From positions 1 through 64,000 of the forward strand of contig NZ_JASHIU010000008.1 in the NCBI RefSeq assembly GCF_030733545.1: a stretch of DNA of 64,000 bases, read 5' to 3'. Of the stretch, positions 41,636-48,861 are shown piece after piece. The position numbers and the translations under genes were made by a program. The notes beneath the pieces are model-generated. The model was not told the DNA's origin, did no database searches, and saw only the letters and a list, made by a program, of their open reading frames with translations. Origin of the DNA: Oceanicaulis sp. MMSF_3324 (GTDB taxonomy: Bacteria > Pseudomonadota > Alphaproteobacteria > Caulobacterales > Maricaulaceae). Positions within the stretch are counted from its first letter, which is position 1. Each line of letters begins with the position of its first letter.

Positions 41636-43453
41636 ATGCACGCCTATCGTACCCATACCTGCGGACAGCTGCGTAAAGCCCAGGTGGGCGAAACCGCGCG
41701 TCTTTCCGGCTGGATCCACCGTAAACGCGACCATGGCGGTCTGCTGTTCGTGGACCTGCGCGACCATTACGGTCTCACCCAATGCGTGCTGGAACCTGAC
41801 AATCCCAATTTCGAGACGCTTGAGCGCATGCGTGCGGAAAGCGTCGTCACCGTGACCGGCAAGGTCGTGGCGCGCAGCGCGGACACCATCAACGAGAACC
41901 TGCCCACGGGTGAGGTCGAGCTGCTGGTCGAGGATCTCGTGGTCCAGTCCGCCGCCGAGGAATTGCCGCTGCCCGTGTTCGGCGAGCCGGACTGGTCTGA
42001 AGAGGTGCGTCTGAAGCACCGCTATATCGACCTGCGCCGCGAGAGCCTGCACAAGCGCATCGTGCTGCGCTCGAAAATCATCGACTCCCTGCGTCGCCGC
42101 ATGGTCGATGAAGGCTTCACCGAATACCAGACCCCGATCCTGACGGCGTCCTCGCCGGAAGGCGCGCGGGACTTCCTGGTGCCGTCCCGTCTGCATCCGG
42201 GCCAGTTCTATGCGCTGCCCCAGGCGCCGCAGCAGTTCAAGCAGCTGATCATGGTCTCGGGCTTTGACCGCTACTTCCAGATCGCGCCGTGCTTCCGTGA
42301 CGAAGATGCGCGCGCCGACCGCGCGCCGGGCGAGTTCTATCAGCTCGATATGGAAATGAGCTTTGTCAGCCAGGATGAAGTCTTCGGCGTGATCGAGCCG
42401 GTTCTGGCGGGCGTGTTCAACGAATTCGCCGAAGGCCGTGAAGTGCCTGAAGGCGCTTTCCCGCGCATTCCGTATGCCGAAGCCATGCGCAAATACGGCT
42501 CGGACAAGCCTGACCTGCGCAACCCGATCGAGATGGAAGCTGTGACCGAGCACTTCGCTGGCTCCGGCTTCAAGGTCTTTGCGGGCATGATCGAGAAGAA
42601 CCCGAAAGTGGAAGTCTGGGCGATCCCGGCTCCCAAGGGTGGCAGCCGCGCCTTCTGTGACCGGATGAACTCCTGGGCGCAGAAACAGGGGCAGCCGGGC
42701 CTGGGTTACATTTTCTGGCGTGAAGAAGAGGGCGTACTCGCCGGAGCCGGCCCGATCGCCAAGAATATCGGCCCTGAGCGGACCGAAGCCATCCGCACCC
42801 AGCTGGGTCTCGAAGCTGGCGACGCGGTGTTCTTTGCGGCCGGTGAACCGTCCGCCTTCGCCAGCTTCGCGGGCAAGGCGCGGGATGTGGTCGGCCGTGA
42901 GCTCGACCTGTTCGAGAAGAATGTCTTCCGCTTCTGCTGGATCGTCGACTTCCCGATGTACGAATGGGATGACGAGAACAAGAAGGTGGAGTTCTCCCAC
43001 AACCCGTTCTCCATGCCGCAAATGGACCCCGATGATTTCATGGCCCTGAGCAAGGACGACCATGAAACGCTTCTGGGCCTGAAAGCCTGGCAGTATGACA
43101 TTGTCTGCAACGGTATCGAGCTGTCCTCGGGCGCCATCCGGAACCACCGTCCGGACGTGATGTTGAAGGCGTTCGAATTCGCCGGTTATGGCGAGGAGGT
43201 CGTGGAAGAAGCCTTTGGCGGCATGCTGAACGCCTTCCGCTATGGCGCTCCGCCGCACGGCGGCATCGCGCCGGGCGTGGACCGTATCGTCATGATGCTG
43301 GCCGATCAGGAGAACCTGCGCGAAGTCGTGATGTTCCCGAAAGACCAGCAGGCCCGCGACTTGATGATGAACGCGCCGGCTCCCGCCGAGATGCGCCAGC
43401 TGCGTGAACTGCACCTGCGCACGGTAGTGCCCGACGCCAAGAAGGACGGCTAG
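41636..43453 (+). CDS. aspS: Aspartyl-tRNA synthetase
   Basis: This class II synthetase charges tRNA-Asp. The 605-residue bacterial-type protein has the N-terminal OB fold ([20 protein letters not shown]), motif 2 [20 protein letters not shown], a GAD insertion domain, and motif 3 [15 protein letters not shown]. It may be the non-discriminating type that also charges tRNA-Asn, which needs gatCAB to be known. A terminator follows. Confidence 0.97.
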
Positions 43454-43515: not shown

Positions 43516-44994
43516 TCAGCCTTCGTTTTGAGGCGGCCGCGGCGGCGCAGGCGGTCGCGTGTCATCGCGCTCTTGTTCTCGCTGGCGCCGCTCTTCAGCG
43601 CGCTGGGCGGCCTCTTGCTGCCGACGCTCACGCTCGGCTTCGCGTTCAGCCCGCCGGGCCTCGATCTGCTCGAGCTCCGCCTGCATGCGCGGCGTAGGCT
43701 GCTTGGGTGGAAACGCAGGGGCGGGAACGGGATCTGACGGCGTTTCTACGACAGGTTTGGGCGCCGGAGCCGCCTGTTGAAGGATTGTGCGGATATGCTC
43801 GCCCAGCTCCGTCGGATGAATGTCGAAATCCCAGTCCATGTCTTCAAGCACGACAGTGGTTCCGGCCTCTGAATGGGCTTCGGCGTAGGCTTCCGCATGG
43901 GCTTCGGCGAGCGCATGCGCGGCGACGCGCAGGGAATCGCGCACGGCTGCAGCTGTGGCCTGTTCGATCGCCAGCTCCACGCCGTCCTGGTTTTCAGATT
44001 CATTGATCCGCACGGTGATGTCCTGCGCCGCATGGCGCAGCTCGGCGACCGCTTCGCGCAGGGCGGCGGCCATTTCACGCTCCCGGACACGACTGGCCAT
44101 ACCGTTTTCAGCCAAGGCTGCTTCGAGCTCAGCACTGGCGCGTTCCAGTTCTTCGCGTTGCGTCTCAAGGCTGGGCGCGGGCAGAGCGGCCACAGCTTCT
44201 GACGAGCGGCGCAGGGTGAACACCAGCGCGCCGTCTTCCGAGCACCGGGTCAGGGTGTAGTCAAAGGGCAGGCGGGTGTTCTCGTCACCGCACACATGGT
44301 GGAAATTGTCAGCCGTCAGCCCGTCTGCATCGCGCAGGTCCGTGGAGGACAGATTCACCGCAATAAAGCGGGAATTGGAGAACTCGGTGTCGCGCAGGTC
44401 GGCATAGCTGAGATCGGTGTTCTCGAAGATCACGTTTTCAAACAGGCTGCCCCGTGCATCCACGCCGCGCAGCCTCGCGCCATAAAAATGCGCGCTCCGC
44501 AGGTTGGAGCCACGCAGATTGGCATGGCTGAAATCGGCTTGGCGGAATACGGAATCGGGCAGATTGGTGTCGCGCATGTTTGCGCCGGTGAAGTCTGACA
44601 GCAGAAACACGCCGCCCTGCAGATCTGAATCTTCAAGATCTGAACCGCGCAGGCTCACCTGGTGCGCCCTTAGGCGCTGCAGCAGTGCGTCCTGAAGGTT
44701 CGCGCCGTCCAGCGTCACATTCGACAGGCGCGCTTCGGTCAGTGTCGCGCTTTCAAAGTTCGCCCCGGTCAGGTCGAGATCAACCAATTGGGCGCCGAGC
44801 ATCTGGGCGTCGGAAAAATTCGAGGCTGTCAGATCGCCGCCGACGATCTGGGCGCCTGCGAGATTGCCGTCGGTGAAGACGCAAGACCGGCAATCACCGC
44901 CGATATACAGACGGCGATGCGGTTCTCCAGCCTGTCCGGGGGCGGACAAACCTGCGCTCAGCGCCAGAGCCAGTATGACGGTACGATAAGGCAT
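43516..44994 (-). CDS. Exported pentapeptide-repeat protein with coiled-coil and proline-rich tail
   Basis: The 492-residue protein has a signal peptide (residues 1-22, ending GQA), a CxxC cap (Cys35/38), then about 38 pentapeptides of the A(D/N)LxG type (about 40-230), for example LTGANFESATLTEARL, which should fold as a right-handed beta-helix. A cap CGDENTRLP with Cys235 and Cys251 follows. Residues 265-390 look helical and Ala/Glu-rich, and the end is Pro/Arg/Glu-rich. Partner and function are unknown. Confidence 0.85.
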   Translation of the reverse strand: MPYRTVILALALSAGLSAPGQAGEPHRRLYIGGDCRSCVFTDGNLAGAQIVGGDLTASNFSDAQMLGAQLVDLDLTGANFESATLTEARLSNVTLDGANLQDALLQRLRAHQVSLRGSDLEDSDLQGGVFLLSDFTGANMRDTNLPDSVFRQADFSHANLRGSNLRSAHFYGARLRGVDARGSLFENVIFENTDLSYADLRDTEFSNSRFIAVNLSSTDLRDADGLTADNFHHVCGDENTRLPFDYTLTRCSEDGALVFTLRRSSEAVAALPAPSLETQREELERASAELEAALAENGMASRVREREMAAALREAVAELRHAAQDITVRINESENQDGVELAIEQATAAAVRDSLRVAAHALAEAHAEAYAEAHSEAGTTVVLEDMDWDFDIHPTELGEHIRTILQQAAPAPKPVVETPSDPVPAPAFPPKQPTPRMQAELEQIEARRAEREAERERRQQEAAQRAEERRQREQERDDTRPPAPPRPPQNEG

Positions 44995-45060
44995 GCCCTA
45001 GATGTAGTCCGCCTGTCGGCTATGAGCGACTTAAATCGTAGTAAGTTGCAGTGAACCCGT

Positions 45061-45552
45061 TTAGCGGCAACGCGGAATCGTCAGCCCGGCAGGCAGTTGC
45101 GTACTTTCATCGCCGCAAGCGAGATTCAGTTGGGACTGGGTGAGCCCCCGTGCCGTGGCCATCTCGGCGCCGGACAGATTCGCGCCTTCCAGACGGGCGC
45201 CGGTCATATCGGCGCTGCCGAAATAGGCGCCGACAGCCGTAGAGCGGCTCAGATCGGCGTGGACGAAGCTCGCGGACGTGAAGCGGGCGCCGAACAGGTT
45301 TGCGATCGACAGGTTGGTGCGCGTGAAATTCGCCCGGTTCATGGTGGCGAGGCTGAGATCCGCTTGCCGCAGCCGGGCGCCCGAAACATCGATGTCCGGC
45401 AAGTCCAGATAGCTCAGATCCGCCTGGAAGAGATTGCAACCCGGGCAAGACTGGCCCGCTCGAACGCGCTCGATCTCGCTGGCGTTCTGGGCAAAAGCGG
45501 GACCGCCAAGCATCAGAGCCAGGACCAGAAGGGCCGAAACCTGTTTCAACAT
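45061..45552 (-). CDS. Exported pentapeptide-repeat protein, short
   Basis: The 163-residue protein has a signal peptide (1-22, ending AFAQ), CxxC (Cys36/39 in SCPGC), about 19 pentapeptides (residues 40-133) and a cap CGDESTQLP with Cys146 and Cys162, spaced exactly as in the 43516 protein. ATG 45552 is preceded by AAGG. It lies 66 bp upstream of its larger relative and 48 bp downstream of the ribonucleotide-reductase-like gene. Confidence 0.85.
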   Translation of the reverse strand: MLKQVSALLVLALMLGGPAFAQNASEIERVRAGQSCPGCNLFQADLSYLDLPDIDVSGARLRQADLSLATMNRANFTRTNLSIANLFGARFTSASFVHADLSRSTAVGAYFGSADMTGARLEGANLSGAEMATARGLTQSQLNLACGDESTQLPAGLTIPRCR

Positions 45553-45600
45553 GGTGCACACCTTGTCTGTTAGCGGTCTGCACTGCGCAAGTTTCAGGCC

Positions 45601-48204
45601 TTAGACCTTGCCCGCCCAGCCGCAGGCGTCACATCCCAGAAGCCCGGCGTTCTCGATCACGGTAAAATGGCCGCATTCCGGGCAGGGATCGCCGTGGTAA
45701 TTGACCACATGCTCTTCCAGACGCTCCACATTGGCGCCGCCTGAGCTGCCCGATCCGCTCGACTGAGGTTTGGGGTCAAACTCGAATCCGCTGCCTTCTG
45801 CAGCATCCTCAGGCTTTCCCGGCTTGGGACGGCTCCCCAGCATGACCACATTGTCGGGCAGCTGGCCGCGCGAGAAGCCCTTTGAAATCAGGCTCGCAGG
45901 ATCGGCCTCGCGCACCAGCTTCTCTTGCTCGACGCCTTTGCCCAATCCGCCCGGATCGTAATTGTGCGGATCGGTCTGGGCGAGATCCTCCCGCCCGAGA
46001 TAGCTCACTGCCAGCTCGCGAAAAATGTAATCGAGGATCGAACTGGCGTGCTTGATGGAGTCATTGCCATCCACATCGCCCGCCGGTTCGAACCGGGTGA
46101 ACAGATAGGCGTCCACATACTCTTCCAGCGGCACGCCGTATTGCAGGCCGATGGAAATGGAGATCGCGAAATTGTTCATCAGCGAGCGGAAGGCGGCGCC
46201 TTCCTTGTGCATGTCGATGAAGATCTCGCCCAGCTCGCCATCTTCGAACTCGCCGGTATGCAGATAGACCTTGTGACCGCCCACGGTGGATTTCTGGATA
46301 TAGCCCTTGCGGCGGTCGGGCAGCTTGCGGCGCTCTGTGGCGCGCTCGACATATTTCTCCACCACGCGTTCGACCACGCGTTCTTCGGCGATTACGGATC
46401 GGCGCACCGAGTCGCCCGTCTCGTATTCAATGGTATTGAGAAGGTCATAGAGCGCATCGCCTTCACGCCGGATCGCAAGGCCGGTCAGCCCGCGCCGTGC
46501 GCTGGAGGCAATCAGCGCGCCCAGTTCCTCAATCGAGCTTGATCCGGGCAGCGCCAGTTCCAGGCTGGCGGTGCTTTCCAGAACGTCTTCGCAGGCTTCA
46601 GCCATGGCCAGACGGGCTTCCGGCGTGGGATCGGCGAAGACGGCCCGCAGCTCCGGGCTAAGGACTTCGCAATCATCCAGCCGGCCTGCGCCATGGACAT
46701 AGCGTTCGGCGGCGATGACTTCGAGCGGATCCACGCCCAGCTTTTCCAGAAGGCGCGGGCCAGCTTCGTCAAAGTGTTCCGGGCTCAGCCCGCAACGACG
46801 CGCCACCTCGGGGCCCAGGCTCCAGCGGTTGATCGCGAAACGCAGCGGGACGCCATCGCTCAGAGCCGCATCGATCCGGGCGAAACCGGCCTGATCGACG
46901 CCCGCATTTTCCAGTTGGGTGATCCAGGTGGCGGAGTGACCAGCCAATGCGCCAGCGCCCAGGGCATGGCGGCGCGCGATGGCTTCTTCATCCGCGGTCA
47001 GCGAGCCCAGGGCAGCGCTGACACAGCTCGCAAAGCTCCGCCCGCCCGGTGCATCAAGCGCAGCGGGAGGATGAACGCCAACCGATTCTGCGCCGATCAG
47101 ACCCGCCGTCAGAGGATCAGGACGCTCCAGGCTTACGGGAGCGGGAGATTCGTTACGCACGATCTGCACGATGTGCTGGGCGCGTTCGCGCGCCTCTTCA
47201 CTGTCATAGGGCAGGGCAAGCGCGGTCAGAGCGGCGCCCAGACCCGACAGACCCAATGCGCCGGACTGGCGGGACGCCACATCGCCCCACAAGCGCGAGG
47301 CATGGGCCAGACCGTCTTCATCAAGCGCACGGTCGCTGACGAAACGCGCAAGATTGATCACGACCGCCACGGCGGTCCGGGCTTGAGGCTCGGTGAAGTG
47401 CAGCGCCGGACGCCCATGGGTCCAGACCGCTTCGGACAAGCGGTTCATGACGGCGCGCGCACTCTGACCATCGGCCAGCGGGGCATCGGTCTCGACCGCT
47501 TCAAAGAAAGCCGGGTCGAGTTGGACGTCGGGCAGCTCTGGCGTGGATGGCGTGGAGAACAAGCCTTGTTCGGGTGTGATCAGGCCCTGCCGGGCGCGCG
47601 CAATGGCGCGTTCGATCATGGCGTCCGGCGCACCATCCCGGCGGGCCGACCGCACGGCGCGCGCCAGCGCCCGGTTGCGACGCGGGTCAAAGCATTCATC
47701 GTCCGCGCCGTCGCAGTTCACACAGGCAAGCGCCACAGCTTCCAACCGCTCGGCCAGCACGCGGGCGCCCACATTGGCGGCGGCCTGGCCCATTTCAGCG
47801 GCATTGAGCGCGTTGATCGCCTCTGTAAGGCCTTCCGCACCGATGAGCGGGCGGGTGTCGGGGGCGGTCAGCCCTTCATGACGCCAGATCGAGGCGACGG
47901 GGCCGGCCTCGCGATGCAGCAGACTCGCGAGAAGCTCATCGCGTTCGATGTCACTGTCCTGTGACAGCGATTCAGCCAGTTCGCTCAGGACATGGCCGGC
48001 ATGGAGCTGGTCGCCGGGGTGGGCATCGCTCAAGGCCACAAGCGCGGCGATATTGCGGGCGTCCCAGCCTTCCGGGGCCAAGAGCTCGATCTCGGCCTCG
48101 CCAGCCACGGCGTCAGGATCAGGGCTGTCCGCCTGACGGCTGAGAAAGGCGAAATCATCCAGCGGTGAAACGCCGTTACGGGACAGGCGGCGGTTGTGGC
48201 TCAT
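45601..48204 (-). CDS. Class II ribonucleotide reductase-like protein with eroded catalytic core
   Basis: The 867-residue protein ends like B12-dependent NrdJ: KLPDRRKGYIQKSTVGGHKV from residue 627, a TSCPD-type domain with EGAAFRSLMNNFAISISIGL, and a zinc ribbon with CPEC and CDAC (841-862). Residues 255-345 (WTHGRPALHF, NLARF, LGAALTALALPYDSEEARER) and 455-464 (RFAINRWSLG) echo NrdJ order. The usual active-site NPCSE loop and the PTAS-type finger motif are not seen, and HFTE runs almost directly into VVINLARF. Probably a pseudoenzyme or regulator. ATG 48204 has AGGAG upstream. Confidence 0.75.
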   Translation of the reverse strand: MSHNRRLSRNGVSPLDDFAFLSRQADSPDPDAVAGEAEIELLAPEGWDARNIAALVALSDAHPGDQLHAGHVLSELAESLSQDSDIERDELLASLLHREAGPVASIWRHEGLTAPDTRPLIGAEGLTEAINALNAAEMGQAAANVGARVLAERLEAVALACVNCDGADDECFDPRRNRALARAVRSARRDGAPDAMIERAIARARQGLITPEQGLFSTPSTPELPDVQLDPAFFEAVETDAPLADGQSARAVMNRLSEAVWTHGRPALHFTEPQARTAVAVVINLARFVSDRALDEDGLAHASRLWGDVASRQSGALGLSGLGAALTALALPYDSEEARERAQHIVQIVRNESPAPVSLERPDPLTAGLIGAESVGVHPPAALDAPGGRSFASCVSAALGSLTADEEAIARRHALGAGALAGHSATWITQLENAGVDQAGFARIDAALSDGVPLRFAINRWSLGPEVARRCGLSPEHFDEAGPRLLEKLGVDPLEVIAAERYVHGAGRLDDCEVLSPELRAVFADPTPEARLAMAEACEDVLESTASLELALPGSSSIEELGALIASSARRGLTGLAIRREGDALYDLLNTIEYETGDSVRRSVIAEERVVERVVEKYVERATERRKLPDRRKGYIQKSTVGGHKVYLHTGEFEDGELGEIFIDMHKEGAAFRSLMNNFAISISIGLQYGVPLEEYVDAYLFTRFEPAGDVDGNDSIKHASSILDYIFRELAVSYLGREDLAQTDPHNYDPGGLGKGVEQEKLVREADPASLISKGFSRGQLPDNVVMLGSRPKPGKPEDAAEGSGFEFDPKPQSSGSGSSGGANVERLEEHVVNYHGDPCPECGHFTVIENAGLLGCDACGWAGKV

Positions 48205-48310
48205 GACGGCTCCTACCAATCGGGCGCGCGAATCACCCTCATGGTACCGGAGGCGTGGGCTTGGAGTCGAAGTCTGAACAGGATGGTCTTAACCTGAGCG
48301 TGGAAAACTG

Positions 48311-48328
48311 ATGGTCCACAGCGACCAT
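48311..48328. promoter_or_regulatory. Dyad in the divergent region before NDUFA12
   Basis: ATGGTC (48311-48316) and GACCAT (48323-48328) are 6-bp arms around CACAGC in the 243-bp region between the reductase-like gene and the NDUFA12 gene. It may be an operator. No NrdR-box-like or cobalamin riboswitch sequence was recognised here. Confidence 0.3.
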
Positions 48329-48447
48329 AGGGTCACGCTGCGCGATTGAAAGCAGGGTTTTGGCGCCCAAATGAGGGTGCATGACTGGACCCGACGCATG
48401 CGCAGGGGCATATAGCGGTCACGAGTATTAGTTCGAAGGAGCACGCC

Positions 48448-48861
48448 ATGCTTGGCCTGCTGTCAAAAGCTTTCACCTGGTGGAATGGCGCATCCGCGGG
48501 CGCTGTCTGGACGATCTGGCGCTCGGGAGAGCTCGTCGGCGAAGACGAGTTCGGCAACAAATACTACCAGGAACGCAAGGGCGGCACCGGTGCGGACGGA
48601 AAAGTTCGCCGCTGGGTCGTCTATAACGGCTATGCCGATGGCTCTCGCGTGCCGTCTGACTGGCATGGCTGGATGCACCACACCTTCGATGAAGCGCCGG
48701 CCAGCACCCCCTTGCCCCGCAAGGACTGGGAGCAGGAGCATCAGCCCAACATGACCGGCACGCTGCACGCCTATCGTCCCACGGGTTCGCTGACCGCCGG
48801 TTCGGCCCGTCAGCGCCAGTCGACAGCGGCAGACTACGAAGCCTGGACCCCGGGGGATTAA
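48448..48861 (+). CDS. NDUFA12-family complex I accessory subunit
   Basis: The 137-residue protein matches the NDUFA12/B17.2 family: GELVGEDEFGNKYYQERKGG, RRWVVYNGYADGSRVPSDWH and the GWMHHTFDEAP motif. It is an accessory subunit of alphaproteobacterial and mitochondrial NADH-quinone oxidoreductase. GAAGGAG precedes the ATG. The core nuo genes are not in the window. Confidence 0.93.
   Translation: MLGLLSKAFTWWNGASAGAVWTIWRSGELVGEDEFGNKYYQERKGGTGADGKVRRWVVYNGYADGSRVPSDWHGWMHHTFDEAPASTPLPRKDWEQEHQPNMTGTLHAYRPTGSLTAGSARQRQSTAADYEAWTPGD

Follow-up and report, generated by a model that had tools for sequence, protein, structure and literature searches.

The 64,000-nucleotide stretch of contig NZ_JASHIU010000008.1 from Oceanicaulis sp. 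MMSF_3324 (hereafter the window) carries a gene, here called pseudo-NrdJ, that is homologous to the class II ribonucleotide reductase (RNR) NrdJ and lacks its catalytic cysteines. The explanation favored here, with a probability of roughly 70%, is that an NrdJ degenerated in place into a pseudoenzyme, which selection maintains because its TSCPD domain and zinc ribbon perform a non-catalytic function. The sequence evidence that points to this explanation consists of the loss of the catalytic and relay cysteines, the retention of the zinc ligands, the constraint on the TSCPD domain, purifying selection, and the position of the gene at the NrdJ locus. Many Caulobacter-related bacteria appear to keep an NrdJ stripped of its catalytic residues in this manner.

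The gene spans 45601..48204 on the minus strand as an intact frame of 867 amino acids (aa), with its ATG at 48204 and an AGGAG 5 bases upstream, in agreement with a preliminary description of this DNA that had noted a long intact frame with a good ribosome-binding site. The same description had proposed an RNR homolog with a lost active site; its observation is confirmed and its interpretation is supported in part, while the minus strand and the loss of the relay cysteines were not mentioned there.

Descent from NrdJ and loss of the active site

The NCBIfam NrdJ model NF005736 matches pseudo-NrdJ with an E-value of 4.8e-119 and 398.7 bits, short of its equivalog cut-off of 1737. The TSCPD domain exceeds its Pfam cut-off (35.1 against 22.8 bits), and the Pfam RNR barrel model matches under its own. 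A sequence search of solved structures returns Rhodobacter sphaeroides NrdJ (7b9q/7b9p) as the top entry, and an hhalign comparison of 11 degenerate with 12 complete proteins gives a probability of 100% and an E-value of 1e-138 over 720 columns. Both the profile homology and the locus are shared with class II RNRs, and on these comparisons pseudo-NrdJ is evidently a descendant of NrdJ. One insert of NrdJ is similar to the N-terminal domain of YebC/TACO1, a resemblance only, at 23.6 bits in Pfam (E 7.4e-5) with the cut-off of 36 not reached.

The losses were counted in an alignment of 18 complete NrdJ proteins of the same order and 24 degenerate proteins (20 syntenic ones, including the window's own, and 4 named ones); six cysteines are seen in all 21 complete loci, including the three (L062, L071, and L072) excluded from the alignment counts. 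The NPCSE radical cysteine, both members of the active-site redox pair (PHACF and TACNLAS), and the C-terminal relay pair C3/C6 are each cysteine in 18/18 complete and 0/24 degenerate proteins, while the zinc cysteines C1, C2, C4, and C5 are kept in 24/24 degenerate proteins. The segment with the first redox cysteine and the specificity loops is gone near the end of the N-terminal remnant (aa 1-135). The alignment and hhalign bear out the absence of NPCSE and a PTAS-type motif that had been reported earlier, with NPCSE, TACNLAS, and PTGT missing; the direct passage from LHFTE to VVINLARF proves real when aligned with complete NrdJ, and the predicted zinc ribbon is present as CPEC...CDAC.

The pattern extends beyond the alignment. 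A motif search of 20 further degenerate proteins found NPCSE, CNLA, HACF, and PTGT absent in 20/20 and four tail cysteines present in 20/20; all 44 inspected degenerate proteins (24 + 20) show these losses. The named loci, the 80 best among at least 587 relatives rather than a census, comprise 76 complete and 4 degenerate forms, the latter from Marinicauda pacifica, Maricaulis salignorans, Maricaulis maris, and a Hyphomonas metagenome-assembled genome. The complete forms carry NPCSE (76), PTGT (76), and CNLAS (75), and their tail cysteines number six in 75 cases and seven in the other; the PTGT loop, missing in all four named degenerate forms, is eroded in the window's gene. A linear motif after the TSCPD domain, ISKGFSRGxxPDN, occurs in 24/24 degenerate proteins and in its strict form in 5/18 complete ones; a slightly looser pattern matches 18/20 of the later degenerate set.

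Nucleotide reduction by the known mechanism would be excluded for pseudo-NrdJ because the active site is gone, and the absence of the relay pair makes it unlikely that the protein has retained the electron-delivery role described for NrdJ. The latter loss also bears on the possibility that pseudo-NrdJ is part of a split RNR, lending its C-terminal domain in trans to another, catalytic chain in the manner of Pseudomonas NrdJb, which has the same domain according to the available parts of PMC5704485 and PMC9669993. The genome search found no complete NrdJ in the window's own genome, where an NrdA-like frame is the sole other RNR frame and no other class II chain accompanies it, so that a split RNR is very improbable there. 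This contradiction holds for the own genome. Among the 40 genomes examined with PF02867, all contain an NrdA-like frame, and eight (G020, G037, G038, G042, G053, G054, G058, and G015) contain an additional RNR alpha frame, 582-902 aa in length. The suggestion that the protein is a partner of a true NrdJ finds no support in the same search; in addition, all 35 genomes with a complete NrdJ hold a single TSCPD gene and none has both forms.

Distribution, selection, and history

In a set of 150 genomes of the order, complete NrdJ was assigned by score (1622 bits or more), and degenerate forms were classed by the length of the frame, the range aligned, and a score of 194-407 bits. Complete NrdJ was found in 35 genomes, 29 of which exceed the NF005736 cut-off, and 106 were classed as degenerate; the remaining 9 have neither form, and what matches they give are weak and can be ascribed to other RNRs. 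The inspected degenerate proteins overlap with this set, 35 of the 44 belonging to the 106 genomes classed by score. The window's own genome has one TSCPD gene. The complete-type NrdJ of the G024:C44 contig is broken into two frames within the TSCPD domain by a frameshift or an assembly error. Across the class, the TSCPD domain is present in 193/289 genomes. Most of the matches listed lie in frames of ∼1200 aa or longer; among them, the window's genome and two more from the same order stand out as clear short-frame exceptions, with five further short frames of 325-1062 aa (G338, G435, G356, G416, and G361).

The segments of the protein differ in conservation. Identity between families in the TSCPD domain is 0.85 among degenerate forms, 0.85 among complete forms, and 0.85 between the two. 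The degenerate forms are much less conserved than the complete ones in the NPCSE-NLAS segment (0.21 versus 0.81), the PTGT segment (0.19 versus 0.90), the C-terminal lobe (0.26 versus 0.54), and the whole zinc ribbon (0.36 versus 0.71), with 0.32 versus 0.41 for the YebC-like insert. The TSCPD domain is thus equally conserved with and without catalysis and the catalytic segments are not, which suggests that this domain has a second role besides serving catalysis. The ratio of nonsynonymous to synonymous substitution rates (dN/dS) in the three closest pairs is 0.067, 0.122, and 0.112 for the whole gene, 0.009-0.047 for the TSCPD domain, and 0.109-0.162 for the barrel remnant, and dN is 0 in the zinc ribbon. 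The YebC-like insert, at 0.010-0.022, is under strong constraint despite the lost catalysis. Within positions 45970-46332, dS of the TSCPD codons is ∼0.3-0.4 of the whole-gene dS in these pairs (e.g. 0.39 versus 0.97); a likely cause is codon bias, given many two-fold codons, and a second constraint is a possible one.

These values speak to whether the gene is merely decaying. An eroded barrel core, the genomes of the order that lack the gene, an internal stop in G120, and short frames in G109 (344 aa) and G123 (574 aa) among the 150 genomes are what a functionless pseudogene might show. The low dN/dS of the closest pairs and the cysteines retained throughout both degenerate sets (the zinc cysteines in the aligned set, four tail cysteines in the later one) rule this explanation out for all practical purposes, and the earlier expectation of a maintained protein is upheld.

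The favored explanation places the degeneration at the NrdJ locus itself. NDUFA12 adjoins the gene in 19/19 degenerate and 13/21 complete loci fetched; the other eight complete loci have a pentapeptide-repeat neighbor in five cases and no marker in three, some of them having ended at contig ends. The window's own locus has the same neighbor arrangement as the other degenerate loci. An organism tree built from five neighbor proteins (20 degenerate and 11 complete rows) requires three changes, and a single clade of degenerate genes is rejected by it (log-likelihood 101.8 lower; approximately unbiased test, p 4.9e-5); the history is read as a repeated loss of NrdJ catalysis at the original locus. 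Two other histories were considered. The idea that complete NrdJ was reacquired from another order was rejected, as 20 complete proteins of the order group against 13 others with a support of 100, and a single clade of degenerate genes is ruled out with the neighbor genes, not with the TSCPD domain alone.

Candidate functions and opposing evidence

In the proposed mechanism, the C-terminal cysteine-rich domain would act as a scaffold for a conserved binding partner, carried by the RNR-like body. The job may be tied to the supply of deoxynucleoside triphosphates (dNTPs), for example through control, responsive to the deoxyadenosine or deoxyguanosine form (dATP or dGTP), of an NrdA-type RNR without an ATP-cone. 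Our best guess is a scaffold or regulator without catalysis and with a link to dNTP supply, and a regulator or nucleotide sensor is possible. That the job concerns dNTP supply is a tentative proposal; the combined version, in which the pseudo-RNR is a dNTP-responsive trans regulator of the cone-less NrdA-type RNR and the TSCPD function predates the death of the class II RNRs, is unlikely.

The single ATP-cone of the own genome lies in a frame of 162 aa, a putative NrdR by its size. Its NrdA (L002, G000:C5) has no ATP-cone and has a tandem NrdR-like box upstream; the consensus of the box was refined with the regions upstream of nrdA, and the nrdA matches are therefore no independent control. 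NrdR-like tandem boxes precede 5/20 degenerate genes, namely 4/4 of family f3 and 1/3 of family f4 (0/1000 shuffles each). Among the 21 complete genes, such boxes are clear in three (0-3/1000 shuffles) and weak in one (44/1000). No cobalamin riboswitch or other Rfam element reaches the gathering score in the window and eight complete-NrdJ loci.

Several results count against the favored explanation or its dNTP component. The NrdR-like tandem box is found at 0/11 degenerate loci of the window's family (f1) and 0/2 of f2, and the dNTP link is unsupported in the window's lineage for this reason. The remaining RNR is a putative class I enzyme, assigned from the length of its frame and its Pfam architecture. 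The RNR barrel fold expected of a class II RNR by descent is present in the predicted structure, where it was possibly imposed by an input of 40 rows, 35 of them complete NrdJ. Four more distant pairs give a higher whole-gene dN/dS than the closest pairs (0.18-0.35 at dS 0.77-1.34), with values of up to 0.58 in the N-terminus, up to 0.45 in the zinc ribbon, and 0.04-0.13 in the TSCPD domain. Apart from the absence of the gene from 9/150 genomes as such, it is dispensable in three g21 genomes of family f3, because there it is gone with its neighbors intact; the context has changed in three g8 genomes of f1 without the gene, because aat is the sole marker that the stretch still shows. As for the history, one change would suffice if the starred branches of the organism tree are used alone, and a tree of the TSCPD domain does not reject a single degenerate clade (p 0.56). 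The last result is compatible with a degenerate allele that arose once and spread by gene replacement, a rival for the history only, as is the finding that about the same segment ahead of the YebC-like insert is missing from the degenerate proteins in each of the four families. Such a spread is rather unlikely, given that the neighbor-gene tree rejects one clade and that the same locus would need repeated hits.

A different job, shared with the favored explanation in its first half, is a serious possibility if short of an even chance. Pseudo-NrdJ may have kept an older moonlighting role unrelated to dNTPs that predates the catalytic loss, such as nucleic-acid or ribosome binding via the zinc ribbon and the YebC-like insert. 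This is consistent with a TSCPD conservation that is equal before and after the loss, with the weak YebC resemblance and strong constraint of the insert in close pairs, with the missing NrdR-like box in the window's family, and with a zinc site that, in S. nassauensis NrdJ, was modeled on a tRNA-modifying enzyme (PMC5704485, available part).

Locus, annotation, and known systems

The features of the gene and its surroundings are collected below. One or two pentapeptide-repeat proteins (43516-45561 in the window) follow the gene in 17/19 degenerate loci fetched, and the two persist in three genomes from which the gene has been lost.

Table 1. Positions of pseudo-NrdJ, its parts, and its neighbors in the window
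Feature	Position	Strand	Evidence
Pseudo-NrdJ gene, 867 aa, stop included	45601..48204	-	Frame, profile matches, hhalign
N-terminal remnant, aa 1-135	47800..48204	-	Alignment
Retained NrdJ insert, aa 136-212, weakly YebC-N-terminal-like	47569..47799	-	Pfam E 7.4e-5, below cut-off; dN/dS
Barrel remnant, aa 213-395	47020..47568	-	Alignment, dN/dS
Deletion site of NPCSE radical-cysteine loop and second redox cysteine, aa 268-288	47341..47403	-	Alignment, hhalign
Eroded PTGT loop, aa 357-379	47068..47136	-	Alignment
C-terminal lobe of RNR core, aa 396-600	46405..47019	-	Structure-database sequence search, hhalign
TSCPD domain, aa 625-745, conserved as in complete NrdJ	45970..46332	-	Pfam, dN/dS, identity
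Linear motif ISKGFSRGxxPDN, aa 773-785, within low-confidence linker	45850..45888	-	Motif search
Zinc ribbon, aa 836-865, zinc cysteines 841, 844, 858, 861, without relay pair	45610..45699	-	Alignment
Intergenic region upstream of pseudo-NrdJ	48205..48447	.	NrdR-box search: no NrdR-like tandem box
NDUFA12, divergent neighbor, synteny marker	48448..48861	+	Neighbor comparison
Pentapeptide-repeat protein 1, downstream neighbor	45061..45561	-	Neighbor comparison
Pentapeptide-repeat protein 2, downstream neighbor	43516..44994	-	Neighbor comparison
aspS, synteny marker	41636..43453	+	Neighbor comparison

The degenerate forms affect annotation in the order, where labels of 'vitamin B12-dependent ribonucleotide reductase' may be wrong. 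Caulobacter CCNA_01966 is labeled NrdJ in a figure legend and drawn into a B12-dependent pathway (PMC6538847), and it is tabulated as a vitamin B12-dependent RNR (PMC5869019), as far as the available parts of these sources go. The C. vibrioides protein scores above the TSCPD cut-off and below the complete-NrdJ cut-off, a pointer and not proof, as six of the 35 complete genes also fall under the NF005736 cut-off. Family f3 presumably corresponds to the Caulobacteraceae, and the annotated Caulobacter 'NrdJ' is probably such a pseudoenzyme. The literature searched yielded nothing on the essentiality of the Caulobacter gene and no report of an inactive NrdJ in these bacteria, including the available parts of PMC9669993 and PMC4390871. 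Naturally occurring dead enzymes with precisely the TSCPD domain retained allow the function of the domain to be told apart from catalysis and put to the test, for which Caulobacter crescentus is probably suitable.

The closest known system is the class II NrdJ of Alphaproteobacteria (NF005736; 7b9p/7b9q), with which pseudo-NrdJ is homologous over aa 134-855, including the TSCPD domain and zinc ribbon, and with which it has an identical locus in 13 of the 21 complete loci fetched. Unlike this enzyme, pseudo-NrdJ is ∼350 aa shorter and has lost the catalytic and relay cysteines, NPCSE, PTGT, and the specificity segment. A second parallel is provided by UL45/M45 of cytomegalovirus, which we take to be of class I origin. 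These RNR large-subunit homologs are likewise inactive and act in another role, according to the available part of PMC5469499; unlike pseudo-NrdJ they are viral, and their role is in host signaling.

The remaining parallels concern the C-terminal domain. In S. nassauensis NrdJ, modeling, cysteine mutants, and zinc content served to assign the zinc ligands and the relay pair, and dATP/dGTP-dependent oligomerization of a complete NrdJ is driven through this C-terminal region (PMC5704485, available part). Pseudo-NrdJ shares the four zinc cysteines and the upstream domain with this protein, whereas the redox pair proposed there (C933 and C945) is absent. The domain before the zinc finger of class II RNRs is described as IscU-like, with no role reported as of 2022, in the available part of PMC9669993. 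It occupies the same position before the zinc finger in pseudo-NrdJ, but is kept here without catalysis, and the IscU fold was not recovered in a low-confidence model of the C-terminal domain alone (mean predicted local distance difference test score of 62, no Foldseek match at E 0.001).
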